This document shows positions 1-55,134 of a stretch of DNA of 64,000 nt, in pieces. Source of the stretch: Saccharopolyspora soli (lineage in GTDB: Bacteria; Actinomycetota; Actinomycetes; Mycobacteriales; Pseudonocardiaceae). How positions within the stretch are numbered: the first letter of the stretch is position 1; the number at the start of each line of letters is the position of its first letter. The stretch spans positions 1-64,000 of the forward strand of contig NZ_JALBWV010000008.1 in the NCBI RefSeq assembly GCF_022678645.1, written 5' to 3'. Made by a program: the position numbers and the translations under genes. The notes beneath the pieces are model-generated. The model had not been told where the DNA came from. It searched no databases and saw only the letters and a program-made list of their open reading frames with translations.

Positions 1-89
1 CGCGAACCAGCCACGAGAAACCACGCGACGGGAGATTGGGCTGGACGCGACCACCACTGTGAATCGCGGAGAGGCGGACCAGTCATGAC
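1..89 (+). repeat. 140-bp family repeat, copy 1 (cut by window edge)
   Basis: Positions 1-77 are identical to 141-217, a spacing of 140 bases, and a third copy lies near 55.0 kb. The copy ends with GAGGCGGACCAGTCATGAC. Its last codons read in frame to a TGA at 86-88, which overlaps the ATG at 85-87. It is therefore the end of a small ORF coupled to whatever starts at 85. The GTCATGAC at 82-89 recurs at 259-266, as a target duplication would. Confidence 0.85.
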
Positions 90-266
90 GCTCCCTGTGT
101 CAACTTCAGTCCTCGCGAACCGCACCTCAGGGGACCGTGACGCGAACCAGCCACGAGAAACCACGCGACGGGAGATTGGGCTGGACGCGACCACCACTGT
201 GAATCGCGGAGAGGCGGGCCAGGGAGAGGCGGGCCAGGGAGAGGCGGACAGGGGGCCAGTCATGAC
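90..266 (+). repeat. 140-bp family repeat, copy 2 (expanded, reads into next gene)
   Basis: This copy lies between two GTCATGAC direct repeats (82-89 and 259-266). It matches the copy at 54995-55134 along its length but is 177 bases long, because a 15-base unit near its end is repeated three times with a few extra bases. Since 177 is a multiple of three, the small ORF that starts at 85 no longer ends here and runs in frame into the amidohydrolase at 262. The other complete copy forms a separate small ORF. Confidence 0.8.
209..253 (+). repeat. 15-bp tandem repeat, three units
   Basis: Three consecutive units of GAGAGGCGGGCCAGG (209-223, 224-238, and a diverged 239-253). They read as five-residue Glu-Ala-Gly-Gln-Gly repeats in the frame of the downstream gene. 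The single-unit version is seen in the copy at 55.1 kb, so this is a local expansion, probably by replication slippage. Confidence 0.85.
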
Positions 267-1221
267 CACCGGCAGGATCGATACCCACCACCACATCGTC
301 CCGCCGATGTGGGCGGACGCGTTGGGCGCGAGCGGGTACTTCGGCGGGCAGGCCACGCCCGCGTGGAGCCCGGCCGCCGCGCTGGAGCTGCTCGACGAAC
401 TCGGCATCGACACGGCCGTGGTCTCGGTAGGCAGGCCGGGTGTGCACCTGGGTGGCACCGACGCCGCGGCCCGTGCGTTGGCCAGGCAGGTCAACGAGTT
501 CGCCGCGGACCTGGTCCGCGAGCACCCCGGTCGGTTCGGCTTCTTCGCGTCGGTGCCGCTGCCCGATGTGGACGGTTCGCTGGCCGAGGTCGGCTACGCG
601 CTCGACGAGCTGAACGCCGACGGCGTGATCCTGCTGGCCAATGTGGACGGTACCTACCTGGGCGACCCGGCGTTCGACCCGCTGATGACCGAGTTGGACC
701 GGCGCGGGACGGTGGTGTTCGTCCACCCCACCGCACCGCCTGGTCCTGCCGTGCCGGGCGTGCCCGCGTTCAGCGCGGATTTCCTGCTCGACACCACCCG
801 CGCGGCGCTGAACCTGGTGCGCCACGGCGTGGTGGCCCGGCTGCCGCGGCTGCGCATGATCCTCTCCCACGCGGGCGGTTTCGTGCCGTATGCGGCCCAC
901 CGGATGGCCAGCCTGACCGAGGGCGCGGCCGGACACGTCGTCACCCGCGAGAACTTCCTGCGCGATTTGCGGACCTTCTACTTCGATACGGCGCTGTCGG
1001 CCAACCCGCACACGCTGCCCAGCCTGCTCTCGTTCGCCGACCCCGACCGCGTGCTCTACGGCAGCGACTGGCCCTACGCGCGCGGCGACAACGCCCAGTA
1101 CTTCACCGCCCAGCTGGATGCCTACCCGTTGACTGAAACCCAGCGCACCGCGATCAACCGGGACAACGCGCTCGCCCTCCTCCCTCGGGTGGCCAACGTC
1201 TCCGCAACGAGCTTTTCCTAG
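262..1221 (+). CDS. Amidohydrolase, ACMSD-like (amidohydrolase 2 family)
   Basis: A 319-residue metal-dependent hydrolase or decarboxylase with the amidohydrolase TIM-barrel fold. Near the N-terminus it has DTHHHIVPP (metal-binding HxH around residues 9-11). It also has VFVHP in mid-protein, SHAGGF further on and YGSDWPYA near the C-terminus, the usual metal and catalytic positions. I chose ATG 262 because the HxH motif follows at once; the ORF is open upstream to ATG 85, but those 59 residues are repeat sequence. It is the first gene before an ABC importer, so it probably acts on the imported compound. The substrate cannot be read from the sequence. The 5' end may now be translated as a longer fusion. 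Confidence 0.88.
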   Translation: MTTGRIDTHHHIVPPMWADALGASGYFGGQATPAWSPAAALELLDELGIDTAVVSVGRPGVHLGGTDAAARALARQVNEFAADLVREHPGRFGFFASVPLPDVDGSLAEVGYALDELNADGVILLANVDGTYLGDPAFDPLMTELDRRGTVVFVHPTAPPGPAVPGVPAFSADFLLDTTRAALNLVRHGVVARLPRLRMILSHAGGFVPYAAHRMASLTEGAAGHVVTRENFLRDLRTFYFDTALSANPHTLPSLLSFADPDRVLYGSDWPYARGDNAQYFTAQLDAYPLTETQRTAINRDNALALLPRVANVSATSFS

Positions 1222-1310
1222 CCACCACAACGAAATCCCCGTACTCCAGCGTCGGCTGGAGGTGTTTCGTCCGCACCCTGACTCGTTTCACCGGCGAAAC
1301 GGAGCCAACC

Positions 1311-2297
1311 GTGAAGTATCGATGCAAGGCGGTGTGCCTGCTGCTCACCGCAGCGGTCTTCCTGCTCAGCGGGTGCGGGGCGCTGAGCGCGACCAACGTC
1401 CCCGGCAGCGGGGCGGCCGAGGGCGGCTTGGTGCCGATCACCGCCGGGGTGGCCGCCTCGCAGTCGTCCACGGCCGTGCTCGTGGGCCTGCAACGCGGCT
1501 TGTTCGCGCGCAACGGCATCCACCTCACCCTCGGCCGCGCGGCCACCGGCGCCGGTGCGATCACGCAGGTCATCAACGGTCAGCAGCAGGTCGCCCTCGG
1601 CGGCATCTCGCCGGTCGTGATCGCGGCGGGCTCACGCATCCCGGTGCAGATCGTGTCGGGTGCCGTCGCCGATCGACCCTCGCCGCAGGGGGCGCAGTAC
1701 CAGACCATGGTCGCGGGCGGCAGCCCGATCCGCTCCTTCCGCGACCTCGCGGGCAAGACCGTCGCGGTCAACTCCCTCAAGTGCTGCTGGGAGTTCTGGA
1801 TCCGGGAGGCCATCGAGAAGGACGGGGGCGACCCGTCTTCGGTCCACCTGGTGCAGCTGACCTTCCCCGACCAGCTCACCGCGCTCGAACAGGGCAAGGT
1901 CGACGCGATCAGCACCGCACAGCCGTACGCGACCGCGTTGCGGCAGAAGGGCTATCGGGACATCGGCGACTCACCGGCGGTCGCCTACGACGACCCGAAC
2001 GCCGACAACACGGTGTTCTACATGGCCAAGTCCTTCATCGACCAGCATCCCGGCATCGTGGAAAGGTGGCGAAAGGCGGTGCGCGAGTCCAGTGAGTACG
2101 CCAACGCACATCCCGACGAGACCCGCAAGGCCATCGTGCAGCAGACCTCGGCCGATCCCGCGCTCGTGGCGATGGCGCCGCTGCCGTTCTACACCGCCGA
2201 GGTGAACCGGCAGGTCATCGAGAAGGAAGCGGCCTTCGCCGTCAAATACGGCGTGCTCGACGTCGTGCCCGCCTACGAAACCTATGTCGTGCCATGA
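1311..2297 (+). CDS. ABC transporter substrate-binding lipoprotein (SsuA/NMT1-like)
   Basis: 328 residues. The N-terminus has two basic residues, a hydrophobic stretch and a lipobox ending in LLSGC, so it is exported and lipid-anchored. The body follows the SsuA/TauA/NMT1 pattern: an early ITAGVAASQSSTAVLVGLQRG stretch, then DLAGKTVAVNS introducing the second lobe. GTG 1311 is preceded by GGAG. Its stop overlaps the next permease start by 4 bp, so it is translationally coupled to its own importer. Family members bind sulfonates, nitrate, aromatic acids, pyrimidine precursors and other small anions; the ligand here is unknown. Confidence 0.9.
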   Translation: MKYRCKAVCLLLTAAVFLLSGCGALSATNVPGSGAAEGGLVPITAGVAASQSSTAVLVGLQRGLFARNGIHLTLGRAATGAGAITQVINGQQQVALGGISPVVIAAGSRIPVQIVSGAVADRPSPQGAQYQTMVAGGSPIRSFRDLAGKTVAVNSLKCCWEFWIREAIEKDGGDPSSVHLVQLTFPDQLTALEQGKVDAISTAQPYATALRQKGYRDIGDSPAVAYDDPNADNTVFYMAKSFIDQHPGIVERWRKAVRESSEYANAHPDETRKAIVQQTSADPALVAMAPLPFYTAEVNRQVIEKEAAFAVKYGVLDVVPAYETYVVP

Positions 2298-3151
2298 ATA
2301 CCGAGCCGACCGCCACGAAGCTGGCCACCGCGCCCGCCGCGTTTGACGCCAGGACAGACTCCGCCGCACCCGGCCGCCATGCCGCGAAGCCGTGGCTGCT
2401 GCGCGGACTCCCGTGGCTGACCACCATCGCCGTCCTCGCGTTGTGGGAACTGTGCGCGCGTACCGGGTTGTTCCCCCCAGAGGTGCCCGCGATCAGCAGC
2501 ATCGGCTCCGCGTTCGGTCAGTTGGCGCCAACTGCGGGGTTCGCCGATGCCTTGGTGACCACACTCGAACAGTTCGCCGTCGGCCTGACCGGTGGTGCCG
2601 TCGCCGGGCTCGCGCTCGGTGTCGCGCTCGGCGCGGTGCCATTGCTGCACCGCCTCGCGCACTACCTGCTCGACTTCCTGCGCTTCGTGCCCGCCGTGGT
2701 GTACCTGCCGTTGCTGCTGCTGTTGCTCGGCGCCGGGCCACGAGTGTCCACATTGCTCGGCATGGTGGGTGCGTTGTGGCCCATGCTTTTCCAGACCCTC
2801 TACGGGGTCAGCGGCATCAACGACGTGCTCCGCGACACCGCCCGCGTGTTCGGACTGCGACCGCTGCAACGGCTGTGGCACGTGGTGCTCCCGGCCGTGC
2901 TGCCGTTCGTGGCGACTGGCGTGCGGCTCGCCGCGTCCCACGTGCTGGTCGTGGTGGTTGCCGTGGAGATCATCGCTTCGGTGCGCGGAATCGGCGCCGA
3001 CATCGCCGTTTACGCGTCCAACGCCGTCTACCCGCGGATGTACGCGCTGGTGTTCGTCGTCGGCGTGCTCGGTGTCCTGGTCAACGTGGGGCTGCTCGCG
3101 CTGGAACGTCGTGTGCTGCGCTGGCACGTCGCCTATCGGGAGGAGGCATGA
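2294..3151 (+). CDS. ABC transporter permease (SsuC/TauC-like), first of two
   Basis: 285 residues with about six membrane segments after a polar N-terminus of about 35 residues. The cytoplasmic loop that contacts the ATPase (the EAA-type loop) lies around residues 175-205, with GVSGINDVLRDTARVFGL followed by LQRLWHVVLPAVLPF. ATG 2294 overlaps the upstream stop and its own stop overlaps the next start, so the importer genes form one tightly coupled unit. Two different permease genes in one SsuABC-type operon suggest a heterodimeric channel, whereas a homodimer is usual. Confidence 0.9.
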   Translation: MNTEPTATKLATAPAAFDARTDSAAPGRHAAKPWLLRGLPWLTTIAVLALWELCARTGLFPPEVPAISSIGSAFGQLAPTAGFADALVTTLEQFAVGLTGGAVAGLALGVALGAVPLLHRLAHYLLDFLRFVPAVVYLPLLLLLLGAGPRVSTLLGMVGALWPMLFQTLYGVSGINDVLRDTARVFGLRPLQRLWHVVLPAVLPFVATGVRLAASHVLVVVVAVEIIASVRGIGADIAVYASNAVYPRMYALVFVVGVLGVLVNVGLLALERRVLRWHVAYREEA

Positions 3152-3942
3152 TGGCCGTCGTCACGCAGCCGCGCAGGGCAGGGCGCAAGGTCGCGGCGTG
3201 GCTCGTCTCGCTCGTCGTACCGGTGGCGGCGCTGCTCGCCTGGTGGTTCGCGTCGGCGGGCAGCACGTCACCGTTCTGGCCGTCGCTTCGCTCGATTCTG
3301 GCGTCGTTCCAACAGTTGTGGTTGTTCAGCCGGTTCACCTCCGACGTGCTCCCGAGCCTCACCCGGATGCTGATCGGCTACGTGGCAGCGGTGCTGATCG
3401 GCATCGCGCTGGGTGTCCTGTTCGGACGGTCGCCGGTGTTGCACCGGGCGTTCGACCCGATTCTGCAGTTCTGCCGGGCCCTGCCAGCCACTGCGCTGGT
3501 GCCGGTGAGCATCGTGCTGCTCGGGATCGGCGACACACCGAAGATCGTGCTCACCGCGTTCGTCACGGTCTTTCCCGTGCTGCTCAACACCATCGACGGA
3601 GTGCGGGCGGTCGACCAGGAGCTGGCGGACACCGCCCGCTCCTACCGGCTGACGCGCGCGCAGCGGGTGCTGCACGTGCAGTTGCCTGCCGCCGCGCCGA
3701 ACATCCTCGCCGGGATGCGCATCGCGTTGACCGTCGCGTTCGTGATGATGGTCGTCACCGAACTGGTGGCGGCGACCAACGGGATCGGGTTCGTGACGCT
3801 GCAAGCGCAGCAGAGCTTCGAGGTTTCGGAGATGTGGGCGGGCATGCTGCTGCTCGGCATCCTCGGCGTCCTCTTCAACGGTGCGTTCGTGCTCGTCGAA
3901 CGCCGCCTGCTGCGCTGGTACACAAAGGACCGGGAGAGCTGA
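3148..3942 (+). CDS. ABC transporter permease (SsuC/TauC-like), second of two
   Basis: 264 residues with an N-terminal hydrophobic segment and about five more. The ATPase-contact loop reads TIDGVRAVDQELADTARSY followed by VLHVQLPAAAPNI. The start is ATG 3148 (Met-Met), overlapping the TGA of the first permease and preceded by GGAGG. It is related to the upstream permease but clearly diverged, so this is an old duplication or a true two-permease importer. The ATPase gene follows after one base. Confidence 0.9.
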   Translation: MMAVVTQPRRAGRKVAAWLVSLVVPVAALLAWWFASAGSTSPFWPSLRSILASFQQLWLFSRFTSDVLPSLTRMLIGYVAAVLIGIALGVLFGRSPVLHRAFDPILQFCRALPATALVPVSIVLLGIGDTPKIVLTAFVTVFPVLLNTIDGVRAVDQELADTARSYRLTRAQRVLHVQLPAAAPNILAGMRIALTVAFVMMVVTELVAATNGIGFVTLQAQQSFEVSEMWAGMLLLGILGVLFNGAFVLVERRLLRWYTKDRES

Positions 3943-3943
3943 C

Positions 3944-4726
3944 ATGCTGACCGTGGAACATCTCAAGAAGTCCTACCGCTCGGCGGGTGGCGAGCTGGAG
4001 GTGCTCAAGGACATTTCGTTCACCGTGCGGGCTGGCGAGTTCCTCACCATCGTCGGCCCGTCCGGTGCGGGCAAGACCACCTTGCTGCGGTGCCTGTCCG
4101 GCCTGCTGCCGCGATCCGGGGGAAAGGTCGCGCTCACCGAGACGGGCAAGGTGATCGAGAGCCCGCCGCCCGAGGTCGCTTGCGTCTTCCAGGATTACAG
4201 CCGGTCGCTCATGCCGTGGTCGAAGGTCAGCCGCAACGTCGCGATCCCGCTGAAGAACAAGATCCGCGACCGGACGGCCCGGCGCGAAGTGGTGCGGCAG
4301 GCGCTGGACGAGGTCGGGCTCGGCGCGTTCGGTGACAACTACCCGTGGCAGCTCTCCGGTGGGATGCAGCAGCGGGTGGCCATCGCGCGGGCCATCGCCT
4401 ACCGGCCGCAGTTCCTGATCATGGACGAACCGTTCGCGTCGGTCGATGCCCAGACCAGGGCTGATCTCGAAGACCTGGTGCTGCGGGTGCGCCACGACGC
4501 CGGGCTGACGATCGTGCTCGTCACCCACGACATCGACGAGGCCGTGTACCTCGGCGACCGGGTGATCGTGATGTCCAGCCGCCCGACGACCGTGCTGCGG
4601 ACCCTCGACGTCGACCTGCCCAGACCTCGCAGCCAGGTGACGACCAAAGCCCTGCCGAGGTTCACCGAGCTGCGCACCGAAGTGCTCACCTTGATCAGCG
4701 GCGCGAACGCGGGAGCGGCCCGATGA
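3944..4726 (+). CDS. ABC transporter ATP-binding protein (SsuB/TauB-like)
   Basis: 260 residues, the normal length for the family. Walker A GPSGAGKTT is at residues 38-46, the signature LSGGMQQRVAIARA and Walker B LIMDEPFASVDAQTR are in the second half, and the switch histidine follows in VTHDIDEAVYL. It powers the importer encoded by the three preceding genes. Its stop overlaps the start of the M24-fold gene (ATGA), which ties transport to the enzymes that follow. Confidence 0.93.
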   Translation: MLTVEHLKKSYRSAGGELEVLKDISFTVRAGEFLTIVGPSGAGKTTLLRCLSGLLPRSGGKVALTETGKVIESPPPEVACVFQDYSRSLMPWSKVSRNVAIPLKNKIRDRTARREVVRQALDEVGLGAFGDNYPWQLSGGMQQRVAIARAIAYRPQFLIMDEPFASVDAQTRADLEDLVLRVRHDAGLTIVLVTHDIDEAVYLGDRVIVMSSRPTTVLRTLDVDLPRPRSQVTTKALPRFTELRTEVLTLISGANAGAAR

Positions 4727-5925
4727 GCGGAACCGAACTGTCCGAACGGCTGAACCACCCGGTCAGCACTGCCGAGCGGAACCGCCGGTGGGACGCGATC
4801 CGCGAGGGCATGACCGCCCGCGGTCTCGACGTGCTGGTCGCGCAGACCAACAACGACTACGTCGGCGGCTACATCCGCTACCTCACCGATGTTCCGGCGA
4901 CCAACGGCTATCCGGTGACCGTGGTGTTCCCCCGAGAGGAACCCATGACGGTCATCCGCCACGGTGCGCGGGGCGAGGACCTGGATATCGATCCCGAGCA
5001 CGACCCGGTTCTGCGCGGCGTCGGCCGGGCGCTCGCCAGCCCGTACATGAGCTCGGTGTCCTACACCCGGTACGACGGGGCCGAGCTCGCACTCGACGCG
5101 CTGCGGCCGTTCGCCACCGGCAGCATCGGCTGGGTCGGCACGGGCACGATCCCCATGGCTTTTGGGGAATACCTGCGGCGCGAGCTGCACGCGGCCACGT
5201 TCACCGAGGCCGCCGACGTCGTCGACAACGTGCGCGCGGTGAAGTCCGAAGAGGAGCTGAACCTCGTCCGCGCCACCGCGAAGCTGCAGGACGCGGCGAT
5301 CGCGGCGGCGTTCGAAGCACTTCAACCGGGCATGCGGGACAGCGACGTCGCCGCCGTCGCACAGCACACCGCGCAGTCGCTGGGCAGCGAGCAAGGCATC
5401 TACTGGTGCGTCTCGACCCCGCTCGGCGAGCCAGGTCGGATCGCGCATCCGCACAGCCAGCACCGCGTGATCCGCAAGGGCGACGCGTTCCACCTCATGG
5501 TCGAGGTGAACGGGCCGGGCGGGATGTACACCGAGATAGGCCGTTCGGGCATCCTCGGCGAGGTACCGGCCCGCATCGCCGAGGAGTACGAATTCTGCTT
5601 GCAAGCGCAGCGGTTCTGCTACGGCCTCCTGCGGCCCGGTGCCGCACCGGCCGACGTCTGGGCCGAGTACAACCAGTACCTGCGCGACAACGGGCGGCCG
5701 GAGGAGCTGCGGCTGCACTGCCACGGCCAGGGCACCGATCTGGTCGAGCGGCCGCTGATCCGGGCCGAGGAGACGATGCCGCTGGCGGCGGGCATGAACA
5801 TCGCCTGCCACCCGCGGTACGTGCTCGACGGCTTCTGCCACTGGGTGTGCGACAACGTCATCATCGGCGACGGCGGCGTGGAGGAGTTGCACAAGTTCGA
5901 CAAGCGCCTCGCCAAGCTCGGCTGA
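4723..5925 (+). CDS. M24-fold (creatinase/aminopeptidase P-like) protein
   Basis: 400 residues: an N-terminal creatinase-type domain (about 1-160) and a C-terminal pita-bread domain. The usual metal ligands of M24 peptidases look changed. The two Asp positions appear as Glu in LMVEVNG and YTEIGR, the His is kept in CHGQGTD, and the two late Glu positions fall in NIACHPRY and HWVCDNVI. The protein is therefore more likely a creatinase-type or other non-peptidase hydrolase/lyase than a typical metallo-aminopeptidase. This alignment is by eye. The gene is coupled by 4-bp overlaps to the ATPase before it and the dehydrogenase after it. Confidence 0.8.
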   Translation: MSGTELSERLNHPVSTAERNRRWDAIREGMTARGLDVLVAQTNNDYVGGYIRYLTDVPATNGYPVTVVFPREEPMTVIRHGARGEDLDIDPEHDPVLRGVGRALASPYMSSVSYTRYDGAELALDALRPFATGSIGWVGTGTIPMAFGEYLRRELHAATFTEAADVVDNVRAVKSEEELNLVRATAKLQDAAIAAAFEALQPGMRDSDVAAVAQHTAQSLGSEQGIYWCVSTPLGEPGRIAHPHSQHRVIRKGDAFHLMVEVNGPGGMYTEIGRSGILGEVPARIAEEYEFCLQAQRFCYGLLRPGAAPADVWAEYNQYLRDNGRPEELRLHCHGQGTDLVERPLIRAEETMPLAAGMNIACHPRYVLDGFCHWVCDNVIIGDGGVEELHKFDKRLAKLG

Positions 5926-18280: not shown

Positions 18281-18281
18281 A

Positions 18282-22600: not shown

Positions 22601-24352
22601 CTAGGTCCCCTGCCCCATACCGCGCAGTGTGCGGGTGCGTTCCTCGTCTACCCGGTAGGAGCTCGGCGGGCGCACCCGTGCGTCGGCCGGACCGATGTAG
22701 TCGACGACCACCCCGTAATGCTCGCGCGCGGCGTCGATTCCGACGTATCCGTTCACGACGTCGTCCAGCACTTGCGGCACCGGTCGCCGCCGCGGGTCGC
22801 CGAAGCCGCCCCCTCCTGGGAACCGCAGTCGCACGCGGGTTTCAGGCCCCAGCCGCACGAGTTGCTTGCGCGGCAGGGTCTCGCCGGTGGCCAGGTCGAC
22901 GAATTCCCCTGCCGCGCCCGGTTTTCCGCCTTCGGCACCCAGGGCTGGGTGCAGCACCCGGTCGACGTTCGCGTTGACGCTCCAGCCGGAAGCACCGCGG
23001 CGGCGGACGTCCACGACCTGCCCCAGCCCGCCCCGGTGCAGCCCCGGTCCACCGGAGTCGGGGCGCAGTTCCCGCCTTTCCTGCACCAGCGGCGTCAACG
23101 CCTCCAGCACCTCGGTCGGTGCGGCGCGCACTCCGGTGGGGAAGCCGGTGGTGGTCAGCCCGTCCTGACGCGGTCGACCGCCGCTGCCGCCCGCGCCGAA
23201 GACGGTCAGGGTGAACGGTTCCGCCTCGTCGACGTCGGCTCCTCGCCACACCGTCATCCAGAGGGCGTCGGCGCTGGGCGCGGGGAGACGACCGCCCAGT
23301 GCTGGGCGCAGTGCCTCGAACAGCAGGCTCGGCAGGAAGTGGCCGACCAGGTGGCGGGAGGCGACCGGCGCCGGGTCGATGCAGTTGAGCACCGAGCCGC
23401 GCGGGGCGGTCACCTCGATCGGCCGGAAGGAACCCGCGTTGTGCGGAACCTCCGGCGCGAGTGCCGCTTTGAACGCGAAGGACGTGTAAGCGTGCGTGTA
23501 GTTGAGCACCACGTTGACGCCGTAGCGCGACTGCGGCGAGGAGCCCGCGTAGTCCACTTTGGCCGAATCACCGTCGATGGTGACCTTGACCTGCAGGCGC
23601 AATTCCTCGTCACCGAAGCCGTCGGTGCGCAGTTGGCCGGTGTAGTCCCCGTCGGGCAGGTCGGCCAGCGCAGCGCGCAACGCCGCCTCCGAGCGACGCA
23701 TGATCTCCGCCGCGACCTCGTCGACGCCGTCGAGTTCGAACTCGTCCATCAGCCGCAGCAGGCTTCGCGCCCCGACCTCGTTGCCAGCCACCTGCGCGTA
23801 GATGTCGCCCATCGTCTCGTCCGGGGTGCGGACGTTGCTGCGGATGATCTGCTCCAGCACCGGGTCCGGCCTACCCGCGTGCCGCAGCTTCAGGATGGGC
23901 AGCCGCAGGCCCTCCTCGAACACCTCGGTTGCCGCCGCGGACAGGATCCGCCCGCCGATGTCCGGGGCGTGGCAACAGCTGGCGAACCAGGCGACCAGCC
24001 GCCCAGCGCGGAACACCGGGGTCGCCACCGTGAGATCGTTGATCTGCCCGGAGGTCATCCACGGGTCGTTGGTGATCAGCACGTCCCCGTCGGCAAGCGC
24101 GTCCGGCGGGAAGGCGGCGGTGACGTGCCGCATGCCGGTGGCCATCGCGTTGATGTGGCCGGGCGTGCCGCCGGTGGACTGCCCGATCATCAGGCCCCGC
24201 GAGTCGAACACCGCGCAGGCCAGGTCCAGCGACTCCCGCACCACCGGGCTGAAGGCGGTCCCGACCAGCGCGGCTTGCTGCTCGTTGAGCAGCGAGTGCA
24301 GCCGGTTCGCGACCAGTCCGACGACGATCGGGTCGAGATGCCGTTGGGTCAC
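22601..24352 (-). CDS. hyuB: Hydantoinase/oxoprolinase B-subunit family protein
   Basis: 583 residues of the HyuB family. Seen are the early LNEQQAALVGTAFSPVVRES, GGTPGHINAMATGM, ITNDPWMTSGQINDLTV and HAPDIGGRI, and near the C-terminus RFPGGGGFGDPRRR. With HyuA it forms an ATP-dependent ring-opening enzyme acting on hydantoins, 5-oxoproline or related amides; some members are acetone or acetophenone carboxylases. GTG 24352 is preceded by GGAGG and overlaps the stop of a 24-codon mini-ORF inserted between it and hyuA. Confidence 0.92.
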   Translation of the reverse strand: MTQRHLDPIVVGLVANRLHSLLNEQQAALVGTAFSPVVRESLDLACAVFDSRGLMIGQSTGGTPGHINAMATGMRHVTAAFPPDALADGDVLITNDPWMTSGQINDLTVATPVFRAGRLVAWFASCCHAPDIGGRILSAAATEVFEEGLRLPILKLRHAGRPDPVLEQIIRSNVRTPDETMGDIYAQVAGNEVGARSLLRLMDEFELDGVDEVAAEIMRRSEAALRAALADLPDGDYTGQLRTDGFGDEELRLQVKVTIDGDSAKVDYAGSSPQSRYGVNVVLNYTHAYTSFAFKAALAPEVPHNAGSFRPIEVTAPRGSVLNCIDPAPVASRHLVGHFLPSLLFEALRPALGGRLPAPSADALWMTVWRGADVDEAEPFTLTVFGAGGSGGRPRQDGLTTTGFPTGVRAAPTEVLEALTPLVQERRELRPDSGGPGLHRGGLGQVVDVRRRGASGWSVNANVDRVLHPALGAEGGKPGAAGEFVDLATGETLPRKQLVRLGPETRVRLRFPGGGGFGDPRRRPVPQVLDDVVNGYVGIDAAREHYGVVVDYIGPADARVRPPSSYRVDEERTRTLRGMGQGT

Positions 24353-24423
24353 GATGCCTCCACAGCGTCTTGCGGGACACCCGCACCCGGTCGGCCCCGC
24401 AAGCGGGGAGAATTGTCACTCAC
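24349..24423 (-). CDS. 24-codon coupled mini-ORF (71-bp element) between hyuA and hyuB
   Basis: A 24-residue ORF starting GTG at 24423, which overlaps the hyuA stop (GTGA), and ending TGA at 24349, which overlaps the hyuB start (GTGA). The peptide begins [19 protein letters not shown]. Its sister at 27501-27575 keeps the frame despite base changes. Ribosomes finishing hyuA could restart here and again at hyuB. Whether the peptide has a role of its own is unknown. Confidence 0.5.
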   Translation of the reverse strand: MSDNSPRLRGRPGAGVPQDAVEAS

Positions 24424-24432
24424 GGGGCCTCC
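24362..24432 (-). repeat. 71-bp family repeat, copy A
   Basis: On the minus strand the unit runs from GGAGGCCCCGTGAGTGACAAT to CAAGACGCTGT. It is followed by another GGAGG at 24361-24357, so GGAGG stands at both edges. It contains an inverted repeat, CTTGCGGG and CCCGCAAG, 19 bases apart. Removing exactly 71 bases joins hyuA and hyuB through GAGGAGGCATCGTGACC, giving a single GTGA overlap. Copies B and C lie at 27492-27633 in the opposite orientation. Confidence 0.88.
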
Positions 24433-27441: not shown

Positions 27442-27504
27442 GTGTCCGCCAGTTCAGCCGGAACGAAACTCGATGCGCCGGTATCGGCAGAGGAGGCCCC
27501 GTGA
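27442..27504 (+). pseudogene. Original 5' end of MFS gene, now a 20-codon ORF
   Basis: GTG 27442 has a good GGGAGG site and opens 20 codons ([20 protein letters not shown]) ending at TGA 27502. Deleting the two 71-bp repeat units (142 bases) fuses this reading frame exactly with the MFS body ([12 protein letters not shown]). So it looks like the true N-terminus, cut off by repeat insertion. Its stop overlaps the GTG of the first repeat unit. Confidence 0.6.
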
Positions 27505-27562
27505 GTGACAATCTTTCCTGCTTGCGGGGCGGACCGGGTGCGGGTGTCCCGCAAGAGACTGT
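27492..27562 (+). repeat. 71-bp family repeat, copy B
   Basis: First of two tandem units, GGAGGCCCCGTGAGTGACAAT to GCAAGAGACTGT, 71 bases to the next GGAGGCCCC. It has the CTTGCGGG/CCCGCAAG inverted repeat. It differs from copy C at four positions and more from copy A in the stretch after GACAAT. Confidence 0.9.
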
Positions 27563-27575
27563 GGAGGCCCCGTGA
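27501..27575 (+). CDS. 24-codon coupled mini-ORF in the first tandem repeat
   Basis: Starts GTG 27501 overlapping the stop of the 20-codon ORF (GTGA) and ends TGA 27573-27575 overlapping GTG 27572 of the MFS gene (GTGA). The peptide [19 protein letters not shown] plus VEAP is the sister of the one between hyuA and hyuB. This leaves a chain of three overlapping reading frames at the MFS start. Confidence 0.5.
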
Positions 27576-27633
27576 GTGACAATCTTTCCTGCTTGCGGGG
27601 CCGACCGGGTGCGGGTGTCCCGCAAGACACTGC
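27563..27633 (+). repeat. 71-bp family repeat, copy C
   Basis: Second tandem unit. It supplies GGAGG and the GTG start now used by the MFS gene, and encodes that protein's first residues. Unlike copies A and B it is not followed by GGAGG; it ends at CACTGC and runs straight into the permease coding sequence. Confidence 0.9.
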
Positions 27634-28888
27634 GATCCTGCGCCGGGCGACGCTCGGCGCCACCATCGGCAGCGTCGTCGAGTGGTTCGACATCGCCGTC
27701 TACGCGTACCTCGCCACCGCGATCGGCGCCGCGTTCTTCCCCGCCGAGGACCCGACGACGTCGCTGCTGAGCTCCTTCGCGGTGTTCGGATCCGCGTTCG
27801 TGGTCCGGCCGCTGGGCGGAATCTTCTTCGGTGCCCTCGGTGATCGGATCGGGCGACAGCGCACCCTCGCCTGGGTGATCATCCTCGTCTCCGGCGCCAC
27901 CCTGTGCATCGGACTGCTGCCCGGATACTCGGCCGCCGGGGTGGCAGCCCCGGCGATGCTGGTGTTCTTGCGCCTGCTGCAAGGGTTTTCCGCTGGCGGG
28001 GAGATGGGCGGCGCGTCCGCGTTCGTCGCCGAGTTCGCCCCGGCCAGGCGGCGCGGCTACCTGGTGTCGCTGGTGGAGATGGGGTGCATCCTCGGCTTCC
28101 TGCTCGGCTCCGTCGTGGTGTTGCTGCTCAACGTCTGGCTCACCGACGAGCAGATCGTGGGCTGGGGTTGGCGCATCCCGTTCCTGCTCGCCGCCCCGCT
28201 CGGCCTAGTCGGCCTCTACATCCGGTCGCGGCTGGAGGAGACGCCGGAATTCGTCGCGTTGCGCAGCCGGGGCGAGCTGGCCCGCAATCCGCTGCTGGAG
28301 TCGGTCCGGTACCACTGGCGCGCGATCCTGAGCGTGGCGGGTTACTCCTTGTTCCAGAACGCCGCGTTGTACGCGATCCTCACCTACGTCCCGAGTCACC
28401 AAGCCAAGATCCTCGGTTACCCCGCTGTCGTCGCTTCGGTGTCGTCCGTGGTCAGCATGTGCGTGATCTGCGCGCTGATCCCGGTGATGGGGGCGGTTTC
28501 GGACCGCTTCGGCCGCCGCCCGGTGCTCGGTGGGTCCTGCCTGGCGGCCCTGGTGCTGTCCTATCCGCTGTTCTGGCTGATGGGGCAGGACAACGCGGTT
28601 CTCGCGGTGCTCGCGCACGTCGGGCTCGGGGTGGTCCTCGCGGTGTTCCTCGGCCCGACGCTGGCGGCGATGAACGAGCTGTTCGCGACTCGGGTGCGCT
28701 ACGGCGGTTTCTCGCTGGGCTACAACATGTCGGTGGCGGCCTTCGGTGGAACCGCGCCGTTCCTGATCACCTTGCTCGTGGCCGGTTCCGGCAACCACGC
28801 CGCACCCGCGTTCTACATCATGGCCGCTGCGGTGGTGACGCTGCCGGTGGTGCTGGCGACTCGGGAGACGGCTCCAGCCCGGCATTGA
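27572..28888 (+). CDS. MFS transporter, metabolite:proton symporter (MHS) type
   Basis: 438 residues with twelve membrane segments. It carries MHS-family marks: [16 protein letters not shown] at the first helix, [18 protein letters not shown] in the first loop, and [20 protein letters not shown] in mid-protein. It imports an organic acid or amino-acid derivative, probably the substrate of HyuAB, since both lie under the same palindromic operator. The present start GTG 27572 and about the first 20 residues are encoded by a 71-bp repeat unit; the likely original N-terminus is at 27442. It is convergent with the next gene, 17 bp away. Confidence 0.9.
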
Positions 28889-49106: not shown

Positions 49107-49119
49107 GAGCATATTGCTC
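49107..49119. promoter_or_regulatory. GAGCATATTGCTC palindrome, possible IclR site
   Basis: GAGCA, TAT, TGCTC in the 143-bp gap between divergent UbiX and iclR starts, 31 bases before the iclR GTG. Placement and symmetry suggest a regulator site. Confidence 0.5.
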
Positions 49120-49149
49120 AACGGAACAACGCAACTTTAGGATTCGACG

Positions 49150-49917: not shown

Positions 49918-50017
49918 GCCGTGGGATGCGGCGCGGCTGCTGACTCCCAGCCGCACGGATCACCGGAACCGCCGCGTAGCGGTGTGTGATGGCGAGAACG
50001 CGTACTGTCACGGATCA

Positions 50018-50036
50018 CATTAATTAATAAATAATG
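50018..50036. promoter_or_regulatory. AT-rich palindrome before sugar operon
   Basis: CATTA, nine A/T bases, TAATG, followed directly by TTGACC (50037-50042), a possible -35. The A/T run stands out in this GC-rich region and lies about 90 bases before the sugar-binding protein gene. A GntR (57.1 kb) operator or promoter element is possible. Confidence 0.45.
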
Positions 50037-50122
50037 TTGACCCGGCGGCATGCGGCGCGCAAAACTTGGTGCCCAGTGGCCTGACCTCCTGTCGGGCGTC
50101 GTGGATCGCTGAGGAGAAACGG

Positions 50123-51118
50123 ATGGGCGCAACGAGGCGTCGTGGCGGCAGTGCTGCCCTGGCGCTGGCGGTGGTCGCGCTGCTCGCGCTGGTCGCGGCC
50201 TGCGGCAGCAAGGTGGGGGAGAACGGCCGGTTCGGCGTCGTCTACATGGACGCGCAGGGTTTCTACGCCGGGGTCAAAGCGGGCATGCAGCAGGAGGTGG
50301 CGGCGCTCGGGCGCGAGCCGCAGCTGCTCCAGCTCAACGCGCAGGGTGACGCGTCCAAGGAGAGCACCTTCGTCGACCAGGTGAGCGCCGCGAAGGTCGA
50401 TGCGCTGATCCTCTCGCCCGCGTCGGCGACCGCCTCGGTGCCCGCGATCAAGCTCGCGCACGAGTCCGGCATTCCGGTGATCTGCTACAACACCTGCATC
50501 TCGGACGAGGCCGCCCGCGAGTTCGTCTCCGCCTACGTGCTCGGCGACCCGACCCGCTTCGGCGGCCTGCTCGGCGAGCGCGCCGCCGACTACTTCCTCT
50601 CCGTCGGCAAGCCGAACCCCAAGATCGCGGTCGTCAACTGCGAGTTCGTGGAGGTCTGCATCCAGCGCAGGCACGGTTTCGAACAGGCCCTGCACGCCAA
50701 GTTGCCCGGCGCGGAAATCGTTGCCAACCAAGAGGGTTCGACCATCGACGAGGCGGTGGACGTCGCCGAGCGGATCCTCACCGCGCATCCCGACGTCGAT
50801 GCCTTCTTCGGCGAGGCCGGTGGGGCCACGATGGGCGCTGTCCGGGCCGTGCAATCCAGGAACAAGGTCGGCCAGACCGTGGTGTTCGGCGGCGACATGT
50901 CCACCGAGGCCGCACAGGCGCTCGCGGCCGACGACGTGCTCAAGGGCGTCGTTGACATCTCCGGAATCGCGGTGGGCCAGCTCGCCGCCAAGGCCGCCGA
51001 GCAGGTCCGCACCGGCGAGCTGGCCACCTACACGGTCGTCCCAGCACCGATCGAGCTCTACGCGACCCCGCAGCAGGGCGCGGACTGGTTGCGAGCGCAC
51101 CCCGACGGCGTGCCGTGA
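50123..51118 (+). CDS. Sugar ABC transporter substrate-binding lipoprotein (RbsB-like)
   Basis: 331 residues. A twin-basic N-terminus, hydrophobic core and lipobox LALVAACGS. The periplasmic-binding-protein-like fold includes FVDQVSAAKVDALILSPASA and the hinge stretch IPVICYNTC; the C-terminal half has VVFGGDMSTEAAQALAADD. ATG 50123 follows GAGGAG. With the ATPase and permease it forms a ribose-type importer. The associated galactonate dehydratase suggests a hexose or sugar acid. Confidence 0.91.
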   Translation: MGATRRRGGSAALALAVVALLALVAACGSKVGENGRFGVVYMDAQGFYAGVKAGMQQEVAALGREPQLLQLNAQGDASKESTFVDQVSAAKVDALILSPASATASVPAIKLAHESGIPVICYNTCISDEAAREFVSAYVLGDPTRFGGLLGERAADYFLSVGKPNPKIAVVNCEFVEVCIQRRHGFEQALHAKLPGAEIVANQEGSTIDEAVDVAERILTAHPDVDAFFGEAGGATMGAVRAVQSRNKVGQTVVFGGDMSTEAAQALAADDVLKGVVDISGIAVGQLAAKAAEQVRTGELATYTVVPAPIELYATPQQGADWLRAHPDGVP

Positions 51119-51162
51119 TCGCTGCGCCGCTACTGAAAACCCTTGCCAGTGAAGGAGAAGCT

Positions 51163-52668
51163 GTGACTGCCGACGTCACCGAACCCGTCGTCGTGGTCGA
51201 CGGCGTCACCAAGCACTACCCCGGTGTGCGCGCGCTGACCGATGCCGACCTGGCCATCCGACCGGGCGAGATCCGCGCGCTGCTCGGCCGCAACGGCGCG
51301 GGTAAATCGACACTCATCCGCGCACTGTCCGGAGTGGAGGGCGTTGACAAGGGCAGTATTGCCGTGGCTGGTGAACGGCTCGGCGAGGGCGGTGTGCGCC
51401 GCGCCGTCGAGCTCGGGATCAGCACCGTGCACCAAGAACTGAGCTTGGTGGCCGAACTGAGCGTCGCCGAGAACATGTACCTCGGCCGCTGGCTGCGGCG
51501 CGGGCAGGCCATCGACTATGCCGCGATGCGCAAGGGCGCGGCGGAGGTCTTCGAGCGGCTGGGCATCGACATCGACCCCGCCGCCCCTGTCGGCTCGCTG
51601 TCGCTGGCCGCGCGTCAGCTGGTGGAGATCTGCCGGGCGGTGCGCGAACAGCCGCGGCTGCTGATCCTCGACGAGCCGACCAGCGCGCTGGCCGCCGCCG
51701 AAGTGGACGTCGTGCTCGACACCGTCACCCGCATCGCCTCGGCGGGCGTGGCCGTGCTCTACGTGAGCCATCGACTGGAGGAGATCCGCCGGATCGCGCA
51801 CAGCGCCACGGTCATGCGGGACGGCCGCATCGTCGACACGGTCGACATCGGGGCGGCCGACACCGCGCACATCGTGTCGCTGATGCTCGGCGACAGCGCG
51901 ACGCAGGTCGAGCGGCCGCCGGAGCGGGACGTCGACCGCACCGGGCTCCCGCTGCTGTCGGTGCGCGGGCTCGCCGTGCCGCCGAAGGTGGTCGACGTGT
52001 CGTTCGACGTGTTCGCTGGCGAAGTCCTCGGGCTCGGCGGCCTGATGGGCTCGGGCCGCACCGAGGTGTTGCGCGCCATCGCCGGGTTCACCCCGGCCAC
52101 CTCCGGGACGGTCAGCGTGGACGGCCGCGAGATCGGCAATCCCAGTGCTGCGGTGATGAAACGGCTCGGCGTCGGCATGACGCCGGAAGACCGCAAGAAC
52201 GAGGGAGTCGTGCCGCTGCTGGGTGTTGACGAGAACCTGGTGCTGTCCAAATTCGACTCGGTCAGCTCGGGGCCGACCGTGTTGCCCGGCAAAGTGCGCG
52301 CAGCGGCGGGGAAACTCATCGCGCGGCTGTCGATCGCGACGGCCTCGGCCCGCACGCCGATCGTGAACCTCAGCGGCGGAAACCAGCAGAAGGCCGTGAT
52401 CGGCAGGTGGCTGCACGCGGGCAGCCGCGTTCTCCTGCTCGACGAACCGACCCGAGGCGTCGACGTGCAGTCCAAGGCCGAGATCTACCGGCTGGTGCGG
52501 GAACTCGCCGACAACGGAGCCGCGATCGTGTTCGTCTCCGGCGAACTGGAGGAGCTTCCCCTGGTGTGCGACCGAGTCCTCGCACTTCGCGAAGGGCGCG
52601 TCGTGGGCGAGCTGATCGGAAGCGACCTGACCACAGATTCAGTGCTCTCCGCCGCGATGGCGGCGTGA
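51163..52668 (+). CDS. Sugar ABC transporter ATPase, two-domain (RbsA/MglA-like)
   Basis: 501 residues with two ABC domains. The first has Walker A LLGRNGAGKSTLIRAL and Walker B LLILDEPTSALA. The second has GLMGSGRTEVLRAI (a P-loop variant without Lys-Thr, as usual), LSGGNQQKAVIGRWL and LLLDEPTRGVDVQSKAEIY. GTG 51163 follows GGAG; GTG 51115 overlaps the binding-protein stop and is also possible. Confidence 0.92.
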   Translation: MTADVTEPVVVVDGVTKHYPGVRALTDADLAIRPGEIRALLGRNGAGKSTLIRALSGVEGVDKGSIAVAGERLGEGGVRRAVELGISTVHQELSLVAELSVAENMYLGRWLRRGQAIDYAAMRKGAAEVFERLGIDIDPAAPVGSLSLAARQLVEICRAVREQPRLLILDEPTSALAAAEVDVVLDTVTRIASAGVAVLYVSHRLEEIRRIAHSATVMRDGRIVDTVDIGAADTAHIVSLMLGDSATQVERPPERDVDRTGLPLLSVRGLAVPPKVVDVSFDVFAGEVLGLGGLMGSGRTEVLRAIAGFTPATSGTVSVDGREIGNPSAAVMKRLGVGMTPEDRKNEGVVPLLGVDENLVLSKFDSVSSGPTVLPGKVRAAAGKLIARLSIATASARTPIVNLSGGNQQKAVIGRWLHAGSRVLLLDEPTRGVDVQSKAEIYRLVRELADNGAAIVFVSGELEELPLVCDRVLALREGRVVGELIGSDLTTDSVLSAAMAA

Positions 52669-52715
52669 ATGCTTGTCGCTGGACTCGTTTTGCGTAGCGG
52701 TGCAGGTGGCGGAAC

Positions 52716-52802
52716 CTCAGACGCCTTCTCGACTCCGGGATCCCCGACTTATGTATGTCCGATACGCGGTGTCGGGGCTGTCCTCGCGAGAAGACGTCTG
52801 AG
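52716..52802. repeat. 87-bp imperfect palindrome inside the sugar operon
   Basis: Outer arms CTCAGACGCCTTCTCG and CGAGAAGACGTCTGAG (one mismatch in 16) enclose inner arms CCCCGAC and GTCGGGG. It fills most of the 222-bp gap between the ATPase and permease genes, where sibling genes overlap. Partial similarity continues outside (AGCGGTGCA appears on both sides). It looks like a small palindromic insertion element (MITE/REP type), and as RNA it would form a long hairpin able to weaken read-through. Confidence 0.7.
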
Positions 52803-52890
52803 AACCCGCAGCGGTGCAAGTGCCGTAGGTCGGCTGCGCCGCTTCAAAACAAGAACAAAGACAGTCTTTGAAACCGAGTTGAGGACGACA

Positions 52891-53889
52891 ATGACCGTTA
52901 CCCAGACCAAGCCGGAGCAACGGGTCGGCAGCAAGCCCCGCGCGGGGCGCTCGCTCAACGAGATCGGCCTTATCGCGGCGATCGTGGTGCTCTACATCGT
53001 GCTCGGCAGCACGGCGGCCGGGTTCCTGAGCCTGGACAACCAGCTCGGCATCCTGCGGGACGCCGCCACCGTGGGCATCGCCGCGTGGGGCGTCACGCTG
53101 GTGATCATCGCGGGCGAGATCGACATCAGCATCGGTCCGGCGGTGGCGTTCTCCTCGGTGTTGGTGGCCAAGGGCGCCGCGGAGTGGGGGCTGGGCATCG
53201 GCCTGGCCATCCTCCTCACCCTCGTCGCGGGCGCGGCGTGGGGCGCGTTGGCCGGATGGCTCCGGGCGCGCTTCGACGTGCCGTCGTTCATCGCGACGCT
53301 CGGTGTGTGGAGCGCACTGGGCGGGTTGGGCTTGTACCTCACCGACGCGCTTCCCGTGGTGCTGCCGGAAAACGGGCTGATGGACGTGCTGGGCGGCAAC
53401 ATCCTCGGCATCCCGACGCCAGCGATCGTGATGGTGGTGCTGTTCTTCGTCTTCGCCTACGTCGCCCGCTACACCGGATACGGCCGATCCGTCTACGCCG
53501 TCGGCGGCAACGCCCCGGCCGCCCGCATGGCCGGGATCAACCTCGCCAGGGTTCGGGTGCTGCTGTTCGCCACCACCGGTGTGTTGTCGGCGATCACCGG
53601 AGTACTGCTGGCCGCGCGGTTGGGATCGGGCAACGGCGGCGCCGCATCCGGGTTGGAGTTCGACGTGATCGCCGCGGTCGTCATCGGCGGCACGGCGCTT
53701 TCGGGCGGGCGCGGCTCGATGCTGGGCACGCTGTTCGGCGTCGTGTTCATCACCGTGATCAGCAACGGGTTGGTGCTGCTCGGGGTGGATTCGTTCCTGC
53801 AGAACGTGGTGCGCGGCGTGATCATCGTGGTCGCGGTGCTGGTGAACGTCGTGCTCACCAAGCGCGCCCGCGCGACGAGGGAGACCTGA
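52891..53889 (+). CDS. Sugar ABC transporter permease (RbsC-like)
   Basis: 332 residues with eight to ten membrane segments. LVIIAGEIDISIGPAVAFSS, FIATLGVWSALGGLG and the late ATPase-contact region YAVGGNAPAARMAGINLARV followed by GGTALSGGRGSMLGT are hallmark RbsC stretches. ATG 52891 follows TTGAGGACG. It is separated from its ATPase by a palindromic element, which is unusual. Confidence 0.92.
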   Translation: MTVTQTKPEQRVGSKPRAGRSLNEIGLIAAIVVLYIVLGSTAAGFLSLDNQLGILRDAATVGIAAWGVTLVIIAGEIDISIGPAVAFSSVLVAKGAAEWGLGIGLAILLTLVAGAAWGALAGWLRARFDVPSFIATLGVWSALGGLGLYLTDALPVVLPENGLMDVLGGNILGIPTPAIVMVVLFFVFAYVARYTGYGRSVYAVGGNAPAARMAGINLARVRVLLFATTGVLSAITGVLLAARLGSGNGGAASGLEFDVIAAVVIGGTALSGGRGSMLGTLFGVVFITVISNGLVLLGVDSFLQNVVRGVIIVVAVLVNVVLTKRARATRET

Positions 53890-54992
53890 TGGGAGAGGAG
53901 ACAGTGGTGTCCGGCGAGATCATGCAGGGCGTGTACCTGCCAGGCGACTCCACCGCGGTGCTGCGCGGGCTGGCGGTGCCGGAGCCGGGGCCGGGTCAGG
54001 TGCTCGTCGAGGTGGGCGCCTCGGGGATCTGCGGTTCCGACATCGGCTACATCTACCACGAGCACAAGGGGCATCGCGGCGTCGACGGTCCGGCCTACCG
54101 GGGTGTGGTCGCCGGGCACGAGCCCGCCGGGCGGATCGTCGCCGCCGGGCCGGGCTGCACCCGCTTCGGCGTGGACGACCGGGTGATCGTCTACCACATC
54201 GCGGGCTGCGGCCGGTGCGACAACTGCCGTCGCGGCTACTTCATCAGCTGCACCGCGCCGCAGCGGCAGGCATACGGCTGGCAGCGCGACGGCGGGCACG
54301 CGCACTACGTGCTCGCCGAGGAGTCCACCTGCGTTCCGCTGCCAGACCGGTTGTCCTATGTGGATGGTGCGTTGATCGCCTGCGGTTTCGGCACCGCGTA
54401 CGAGGGACTGCGGCGAATCGGGGTCAACGGCGAAGGTGACCTGCTCGTGGTCGGGCTCGGCCCGGTGGGGCTGGCGGCCGGGATGATCGGCAAGGGCATG
54501 GGCGCTCGGCGGGTGGTCGGCGTCGAGCTGTCCCCGCAGCGCCGCGAGTGGGCGGACCAGTTGGGCGTGTTCGACGCGACCGTGGCACCCGAAGCGGACG
54601 CCGAGGCGACGGCGGCCCTGGTCGCCGACGTGCTGCACGCGCCGGGCGCGGTCACCACCATCGACTGCTCCGGCTCCCGCGCGGGCCGGGCCACGGCCAT
54701 CGCCGGTGCCGCCGAGTGGGGTCGGGTGTCCCTCGTCGGCGAGGGCGGCACGCTGGAGACCGAGGTGTCGGACGCGTTGCTGCACAAGCAGTTGACGCTG
54801 TACGCATCGTGGGTGACTTCGCTGACGGCGATGACCGAACTGGCGGAGAACCTGGACCGCTGGAACCTGCGTCCGGAGACCGTGGTCAGCGACCGGTTCC
54901 CGTTGGAGGCGGCCGACCCGGCCTACGCGCTGGCCGCCGGGGCCAGCCGGGGCAAGGTCGTGCTGCTGCCCTCCCCGGAGCTGCGGTCGTGA
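53889..54992 (+). CDS. Zinc-dependent alcohol/sugar dehydrogenase (MDR family)
   Basis: 367 residues. The catalytic zinc region has GASGICGSDIGYIYHEHKG and VVAGHEPAGRI, the structural zinc cysteines are in GCGRCDNCRRGYFISC, and the NAD fold has LLVVGLGPVGLAAGMI. It would oxidise a sugar or sugar alcohol to the keto or lactone form. ATG 53889 overlaps the permease stop by one base. At its 3' end an inserted 140-bp repeat now separates it from the next gene. Confidence 0.91.
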   Translation: MGEETVVSGEIMQGVYLPGDSTAVLRGLAVPEPGPGQVLVEVGASGICGSDIGYIYHEHKGHRGVDGPAYRGVVAGHEPAGRIVAAGPGCTRFGVDDRVIVYHIAGCGRCDNCRRGYFISCTAPQRQAYGWQRDGGHAHYVLAEESTCVPLPDRLSYVDGALIACGFGTAYEGLRRIGVNGEGDLLVVGLGPVGLAAGMIGKGMGARRVVGVELSPQRREWADQLGVFDATVAPEADAEATAALVADVLHAPGAVTTIDCSGSRAGRATAIAGAAEWGRVSLVGEGGTLETEVSDALLHKQLTLYASWVTSLTAMTELAENLDRWNLRPETVVSDRFPLEAADPAYALAAGASRGKVVLLPSPELRS

Positions 54993-55132
54993 GCGGCACC
55001 GTGTCAACCTCAGTCCTCCTCAACCGCTCCCCAGGGGACCGTGACGCAAACCAGCCACAAGAAACCACGCAACGGGAGATTGTGCTGGACGCGACCACCA
55101 CTGTGAATCGCGGAGAGGCGGACCAGTCGTGA
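54989..55132 (+). CDS. 47-codon coupled mini-ORF (140-bp element)
   Basis: GTG 54989 overlaps the dehydrogenase stop (GTGA), and the TGA at 55130-55132 overlaps the GTG at 55129 of the next gene (GTGA). The 47-residue peptide begins MSGTVSTSVLLNRSPGDRD and ends with TVNRGEADQS. A closely similar peptide is encoded near position 85-230. It is very polar, with no known domain. Ribosomes could pass from gene to mini-ORF to gene. Confidence 0.5.
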   Translation: MSGTVSTSVLLNRSPGDRDANQPQETTQREIVLDATTTVNRGEADQS

Positions 55133-55134
55133 GC
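54995..55134 (+). repeat. 140-bp family repeat, copy 3
   Basis: Flanked by GTCGTGAGC on both sides (54986-54994 and 55126-55134), a 9-base direct duplication. The body matches positions 90-266 with about 90% identity apart from the expansion there. Removing 140 bases restores GCGGTCGTGAGCCGCGG, in which the dehydrogenase TGA and the next GTG overlap directly. Confidence 0.9.

Follow-up and report, generated by a model that had tools for sequence, protein, structure and literature searches.

Two unrelated families of small, apparently mobile repeats at gene starts of Saccharopolyspora soli

The window analyzed here, a 64,000-nt stretch of Saccharopolyspora soli DNA (positions 1-64000 of contig C173 in the draft genome G000, 9.35 Mb in 184 contigs), contains copies of two dispersed repeats, F1 (about 140 bp) and F2 (71-77 bp), located where the stop codon of one gene meets the start codon of the next. 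A sequence-only reading of this DNA had taken both to be mobile, translationally coupled mini-cistrons. As argued below, F1 and F2 probably constitute two unrelated families of small, non-autonomous mobile elements that occupy initiation regions in the manner of mycobacterial interspersed repetitive units (MIRUs), F1 being of IS110 type and devoid of a transposase.

Copies in the window and placement at gene junctions

Three F1 copies (1-88, 85-261 and 54989-55132) and three F2 copies (24423-24349 on the minus strand, 27501-27575 and 27572-27633) lie in the window. Those that are complete contain a small open reading frame (ORF), and the copies and their neighbors are arranged as follows.

1-84, plus strand: F1 copy a, right part only, the contig start cutting the element; its right-hand ATGA is 85-88
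85-261, plus strand: F1 copy b, starting with ATG; net 177 nt (0 modulo 3), fused in frame to an amidohydrolase gene starting at 262; 15-bp expansion at 208-247
53889-54992, plus strand: zinc-type alcohol dehydrogenase gene upstream of F1 copy c; predicted start at 53889, stop TGA 54990-54992 within GTGA
54986-54994, plus strand: 9-bp repeat GTCGTGAGC at the left flank of F1 copy c
54989-55132, plus strand: F1 copy c, with a 144-nt mini-ORF encoding 47 aa, GTGA overlap at each end, net 140 nt
55126-55134, plus strand: 9-bp repeat GTCGTGAGC again, at the right flank of F1 copy c
55129-56328, plus strand: gene downstream of F1 copy c (DUF4380), its GTG at 55129 within GTGA
24349-24423, minus strand: F2 copy, mini-ORF of 75 nt, GTGA overlap at each end, net 71 nt
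24422-24420 and 24352, minus strand: stop of the hydantoinase A gene and start of the hydantoinase B gene flanking this F2 copy
24393-24429, minus strand: hairpin of this F2 copy; arm 24429-24417 (Shine-Dalgarno end, spacer and GTG start) pairs with arm 24405-24393
27501-27575, plus strand: F2 copy leading a 71-bp tandem pair; its 75-nt mini-ORF opens with a GTG that shares bases with the stop of a 20-codon ORF (27442-27504)
27572-27633, plus strand: second F2 copy of the pair, right border approximate, fused in frame with an MFS transporter gene (27572-28888)

The proposed rule of a GTGA overlap at both ends and a net length of 140 or 71 nt holds at 54989-55132, 24423-24349 and 27501-27575 and fails at 85-261 and 27572; at 27501-27575 the upstream partner is just the 20-codon ORF. 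This ORF may once have been the N-terminal part of the MFS gene, which F2 would have split at an internal GAGGAGG. No known RNA was matched in the window at the Rfam gathering score.

Both families are real and extend over the genome, as had been supposed. The 3′ motif of F1 has 87 matches at up to three mismatches, some of them expansions inside one copy, and the F2 core has 38, whereas the reversed-pattern control of F1 and the control of F2 have 0. The loci fetched from this genome hold 82 distinct F1 copies, mostly 137-164 bp long, and 42 F2 core places, mostly 71-77 bp long. The repeats break this assembly, with contigs ending within F1/F2 arrays at window position 1 and in C133, C163, C166 and C23, so that these copy numbers are minimum values. 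F1 copies such as those at loci L027, L020 and L129 are expanded in frame close to the 3′ (right) end, by 12 bp (GGAGGCGGAACT) and by about 23 bp. At L158, L022/L038, L025/L159, L139 and L155, F1 and F2 stand head to tail at one junction and look as if every insertion provides a fresh target.

Genes around the copies were called with a codon model trained on the window genes. On the right, the 82 F1 copies meet a gene start in another frame (60), continue as in-frame fusions (10) or adjoin another F1 (7), and the rest end at antisense coding sequence (3), a contig end (1) or otherwise (1); hence 70 of the 82 lie at, or are fused to, a gene start. The left side is clear for 52 F1 copies (30 of the 82 being unclear): 41 overlap the upstream gene by 4 nt (TGA/NTG) and 2 by 8 nt, 8 upstream genes stop earlier and 1 reads in. 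Among the 22 clear F2 cases (20 of 42 unclear), 13 overlap by 4 nt, 5 by 1 nt (TGATG) and 2 by 8 nt, and 2 genes stop earlier. The background frequency of the 4-nt overlap is 82 in 321 same-strand gene pairs, taken from a set of 72 named loci. Those loci also contain 81 F1 matches, of which 60 have a recognized start; a 4-nt overlap is present in 35 of the 36 with an assigned upstream gene, although upstream genes were searched for only near the start. The placement rule is therefore location at gene starts, mostly at overlaps. Outside the window, the rule of two overlaps and a fixed net length holds for most, not all, copies; the elements are not confined to operons, some copies preceding genes without an overlapping upstream gene.

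The downstream coding frame alone gives the net length of 65 F1 copies (17 of the 82 having no or weak data) as 2 modulo 3 in 48, 0 in 11 and 1 in 6, the class of 0 consisting mostly of in-frame fusions. The corresponding F2 counts are 17, 5 and 7 in 29 clear cases (13 of 42 left out), and 54, 12 and 10 in a wider set of 76 single F2 copies. Net lengths taken from element borders are partly 2 modulo 3 by construction; the count from the downstream frame is a fair, weaker measure. The class 2 modulo 3, singled out earlier as the only one able to make two 4-nt overlaps out of one, is predominant and not the sole class to survive; the idea that insertion follows a logic of keeping downstream genes translated is supported. 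The peptide itself is not conserved: in 22 F1 copies of 144 nt, divergence at the three codon positions is 0.106, 0.113 and 0.109, and the ratio of nonsynonymous to synonymous rates is 0.91, so that the F1 frame is kept and its peptide is neutral. A peptide function of the mini-ORFs was rejected on this lack of selection on the F1 peptide and on the lack of any Pfam or NCBIfam match.

Empty sites in sister species had been predicted, and they were found for both families. When the flanks were joined at 22 of 27 eligible F1 sites and searched in four sister genomes, 11 matched across the junction, 2 more matched only with gaps or at 73-77% identity and 9 gave no match. Ten F1 empty sites were aligned; 8 show no gap around a single NTGA in two or more sisters, and of the other two, one differs by 11-12 nt upstream and one by 3 nt at two places. 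Of 15 F2 sites joined in this way, 9 matched across, including the hydantoinase site of the window at 73%; 8 of the 9 were aligned, some with small upstream length differences, and a tenth site (L041) aligned across with no start codon there. These sites bear out insertion into stop/start overlaps, to which the 1-nt TGATG overlaps must be added for F2. At the junction that carries F1 here at L122, genome G007 (L320; G007:C1:8914900-8915420) has another insert with an F2-like end and internal repeats. At that of L013, which likewise holds F1 here, a small palindrome stands in G007 (L326), and G020 (L327) has unrelated sequence of about 0.7 kb. Two sisters carry, at the F2 site L119, degenerate F2-like mini-cistrons that still lead to ATGA (L321, L322).

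The distribution among genomes differs between the families. The exact F1 core pattern occurs, among the matches listed, in 72 stretches, 49 of them from Saccharopolyspora and the remainder from Actinophytocola, Actinosynnema, Amycolatopsis, Kibdelosporangium and Labedaea. Within the genus, F1 is present in 19 of 22 genomes with 1 to at least 45 matches each (about 40 best candidates per genome were scored, so that high counts are lower bounds), and F2 in 18 of 22, with 36 matches in this genome and 1-10 in the others. The two spread independently, because G015 and G021 have 0 F1 but 10 and 9 F2, and G001, G008, G010 and G012 have at least 39-43 F1 each but 2-4 F2. Across 249 genomes of the order, blastn with F1 (best 3 candidates per genome) gave matches in 8, of which 6 belong to the family; an F1-like match outside it, in G105, was not recovered with two exact patterns, and F1 DNA had no match in a plasmid collection. 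A covariance model of F2 (best 17 candidates per genome) found 81 of the 249 genomes at E ≤0.001; the strong matches are spread over many genera of the family and also occur in family f8, and many of the others are weak. In G235 of family f8, the model gives 5 matches (E 1.5e-24), and two loci there (L381, L410) show F2-type elements in another family of the order with a net length of 74.

Target of F1 and its link to IS110 elements

The flanks were compared in 80 F1 copies that stand outside tandems and have a mini-ORF ending on NTGA (43 from this genome and 37 from the named loci; 7 tandem copies were dropped). Identity between left and right flanks exceeds permutation at positions -2, -1, 0 and +4 around the TGA (p 0.0007, 0.0007, 0.015 and 0.0002) and is weakly raised at -3 and +7. 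At the same four positions, F1 targets differ from 82 element-free 4-nt overlaps by a preference for G, C, A and G (p 0.004, 1e-5, 2e-6 and 1e-8), and no bias against these overlaps was found at -14 to -3. Because flank agreement and target bias fall at the same positions, the F1 target is GCATGAG, the 7 bp over which the flanks agree.

The left end of F1 corresponds to the right end of IS110 elements in three other genera, where it abuts the transposase stop. A 21-nt exact match to it was found in G096 (family f10), directly behind the stop of an IS110-family transposase fragment that has no match among phages. The end, which reads TTGACACAGGGC-ACTCA, agrees with F1 at 18 of 18 nt in G096, 17 of 18 in Rhodococcus sp. 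WAY2 and 18 of 18 in Nonomuraea gerenzanensis; five more distant IS110 elements share 10-13 of 18 nt by ungapped count. Three Streptomyces elements have a diverged form, TTGACTCAGGAAACTCATG, and Mesorhizobium has 13 and Pseudonocardia 11 of 18 nt. The WAY2 element, which is split by an IS3 element, is flanked by one gene that ends in GCATGAG and one that starts with GTGAGC, has the orientation of F1 and restores the start codon, as F1 does. A Streptomyces element (L464) is likewise placed in F1's orientation between a gene with its stop in GCATGAG and a gene starting ATGAGC. The overlap rule of F1 is probably a by-product of target choice, given that overlaps of this kind also hold IS110 elements whose end is identical or related.

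Part of PMC11187229 describes IS110-type elements as choosing their targets via a noncoding RNA, and a passage of PMC8141618 gives the target of IS900, CATGNNNNNNTCTCCTT, as a start codon and a Shine-Dalgarno sequence. The stretch between the left end and the transposase gene, read by eye, carries CCGGCATGAGTT in WAY2 and CAGCATGAGTT in L464, and the noncoding regions of both elements contain GCATGAG, which is the F1 target; that of Nonomuraea carries CAGACTGAGTT with GACTGAG, the target of that element. GCATGAG is a candidate guide. F1 thus matches this IS110 subgroup in its end, its orientation, its target and its start-codon logic, and it is most likely a transposase-less IS110-type element, which would be moved in trans at GCATGAG by an IS110-type recombinase and its guide RNA.

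Flanks and hairpin of F2

The flanks of F2 agree over 15-16 bp. In 90 F2 arrays (46 obtained via the order search), agreement is in excess at -13, -11, -10, -8, -7, -5 to 0, +3 and +4, so that it spans the whole initiation region; mis-anchored rows (L380, L388, L406) weaken this signal, and arrays ending in a partial next copy (L387, L416, L428, L451) strengthen it. Each element had been supposed to carry a Shine-Dalgarno sequence for the next gene, which is the case for F1; for F2, wherever the empty site is known, the right-hand Shine-Dalgarno sequence belongs to the host gene itself. These sites have a native right flank but only in some cases a native left spacer, so that target duplication and insertion into a matching site would look the same.

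One side of the F2 hairpin is formed by the Shine-Dalgarno end, the spacer and the start codon, the other by an internal arm. The duplex of 47 copies with their own arms has a mean of -18.3 kcal/mol, compared with -13.7 for permuted arms, and none of 20,000 permutations reaches it. In an alignment of 20 copies, both partners vary at 9 of 13 pairs, and pairing is seen in 88.8% of cells, compared with 30-48% after sliding the arms. Departures from Watson-Crick pairing are G-U in 143 cases and A-C in 15 by the per-position table (the A-C total of 22 also counts letter pairs), as opposed to 2303 and 914 with shuffled partners. This asymmetry (Fisher p 1.6e-8; 124 of 149 arm pairs, which are not independent) indicates that pairing occurs in the sense strand, most simply in the mRNA. 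Folding of single F2 copies gave z near -2 in 2 of 4, the other 2 not reaching it, and the same hairpin scan on 49 F1 copies found nothing beyond z -2.5 in 18 windows per flank.

A process without transposition, in which recombination or template switching at short homologies (GGAGG...ATGA) is combined with tandem duplication, would agree with the frequent tandem arrays and with the initiation-region sequence shared by the flanks. Quasi-palindrome correction, which can perfect imperfect hairpins, could also have shaped the F2 arms. The excess of G-U over A-C argues against plain DNA copying of the arm, however, and the dispersed copies, the gap-free junctions at 8 aligned F1 sites and an F1 target preference beyond the needs of a gene start make this origin very improbable.

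The repeats could instead be regulatory leader cistrons retained for control of the downstream gene, with the F2 hairpin as the regulatory part. Its copy-by-copy covariation and sense-strand tolerance of G-U speak for such a role, as does the position of 70 of 82 F1 copies directly at, or fused to, gene starts. It is unlikely all the same, because the genes flanking the window copies have mixed functions, the F1 peptide is not selected, F1 has no covarying hairpin and copy numbers burst in single species with empty sites in sisters.

The internal arm of F2 covaries both with its left flank and with the right flank on the host side, in neither case matched by any of 5000 permutations, and at 8 sites with native sequence it fits its own left flank best in 5 and equally or worse in 3. 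Since the arm covaries with both flanks and these agree over 15-16 bp, it might be a guide in its own right; both families would then be RNA-guided, start-codon-seeking mobile cistrons from IS110-type systems, F1 borrowing a recombinase and the GCATGAG guide and F2 using its arm, and MIRUs may have the same origin. We regard this wider scheme as possible and rather doubtful. A stretch before the IS110 gene at L331 of the S. soli genome (1445-1490, contig C165; GCGGGTGT...AAAACGCTGG-GAGG) slightly resembles the 3′ end of F2; an F2 profile search gave no match there.

Under the preferred reading of two MIRU-type mobile families, insertion would turn one stop/start overlap into two with a mini-ORF between them. 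The peptide would be a by-product, and what is kept would be a frame that stays open so that the ribosome can move on to the following gene, or else a fusion in frame with it. F2 sits on the stretch from Shine-Dalgarno sequence to start codon and would fold its own copies of both into an mRNA hairpin, so that its mini-ORF is probably started mainly by ribosomes coming from upstream. The spread of both elements may be tolerated since operon expression would stay intact.

Comparison with known mobile elements

Several points weigh against this reading. The flanks of F1 copy c in the window have no match in the four sister genomes. All seven positions of the target (-2 to +4) agree in just 21 of 80 F1 copies, and six (-1 to +4) in 47. 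At most F2 sites with a known empty site, the left spacer is unlike the native one. No inverted repeats of at least 8 bp were found in F1, which thus lacks the terminal inverted repeats of a miniature inverted-repeat transposable element (MITE). Its interior is unlike the IS110 noncoding regions of WAY2 and Nonomuraea (the scores were reached by 147 and 202 of 300 shuffles), and by this comparison no guide RNA of the IS110 kind was found in F1 itself. The three IS110 matches of the draft S. soli genome are without an F1 or F2 match in the fetched loci, and no present mover was seen in it among the transposases searched, which were IS110 and Y1. A Y1 transposase of the type associated with repetitive extragenic palindromic (REP) sequences (REP/RAYT) was rejected as mover, the locus of the single Y1 gene having no F1 or F2 match.

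The dissimilar interior and the fact that no IS110 element with such an end was seen in this genome would suit movement of F1 by a classical transposase with a 7-bp target duplication, which would also give the excess flank agreement over 7 bp, the IS110 end being then captured or similar by chance. The same 18-nt end abuts the IS110 stop in three genera, however, with agreement in target, orientation and restored start codon, and F1 lacks terminal inverted repeats; this explanation seems improbable, if somewhat less so than that of leader cistrons.

To our knowledge, MIRUs, which were reportedly described by Supply et al. in 1997, are without dyad symmetry; F1, having no inverted repeats, agrees with this and F2, with its strong hairpin, differs. 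Like MIRUs, both families are dispersed and apparently mobile, are located at start codons and contain a small ORF whose ends overlap the neighboring ORFs in the same orientation (on the upstream side by 4 nt in 41 of 52 clear F1 and 13 of 22 clear F2 cases, and by 1 nt in 5 F2 cases). Parts of PMC12548453 present MIRUs as apparently mobile elements that insert at start codons and whose ORF is coupled at -4 nt to the gene there, and the opinion that no class is known for a duplicated stop/start overlap cannot be upheld against a description in these terms. The MIRU length of 40-100 bp given in a portion of PMC2734929 includes F2 (71-77) and is exceeded by F1 (137-164); additional MIRU facts stand in sections of PMC2734929 and PMC4213456. 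F1 and F2 thus work like MIRUs, a likeness by description.

With the IS110 subgroup of WAY2, Nonomuraea and Streptomyces, F1 shares the terminal 18 nt of the first two (17 and 18 of 18) and the orientation, GCATGAG target and stop/start junctions of WAY2 and L464, and it differs in its interior and in lacking a transposase gene. The target described in part of PMC8141618 likens IS900, itself an IS110-family member, to F1 and F2; this likeness too is by description, and IS900 is autonomous. A further comparison concerns elements of other types. REP sequences and bacterial interspersed mosaic elements (BIMEs), MITEs and Rickettsia palindromic elements are small, dispersed, non-autonomous repeats, and F1 and F2 resemble them in this respect, F2 in being partly palindromic and F1 in the in-frame fusion of 10 of 82 copies. 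The difference is that F1 and F2 are coupled mini-cistrons at translation starts and that F1 is without inverted ends.

What is new is the occurrence of two unrelated MIRU-like families outside mycobacteria, F1 with its target and IS110 end and F2 with flank agreement over the whole initiation region and a covarying hairpin; literature searches, judged from their listings, gave no paper on such repeats in Saccharopolyspora or Pseudonocardiaceae. MIRU-type elements would accordingly not be confined to mycobacteria, since two families in Pseudonocardiaceae show copy-number bursts in single species. For annotation, many 47-aa "proteins" and N-terminal extensions in these genomes would be mobile DNA, and F2 provides a natural hairpin over its own ribosome-binding site. 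F1 gains a candidate mover in the IS110 recombinases, now known as RNA-guided; the end and target that it has in common with IS110 point to how such elements may move, and how they find stop/start junctions becomes directly testable.

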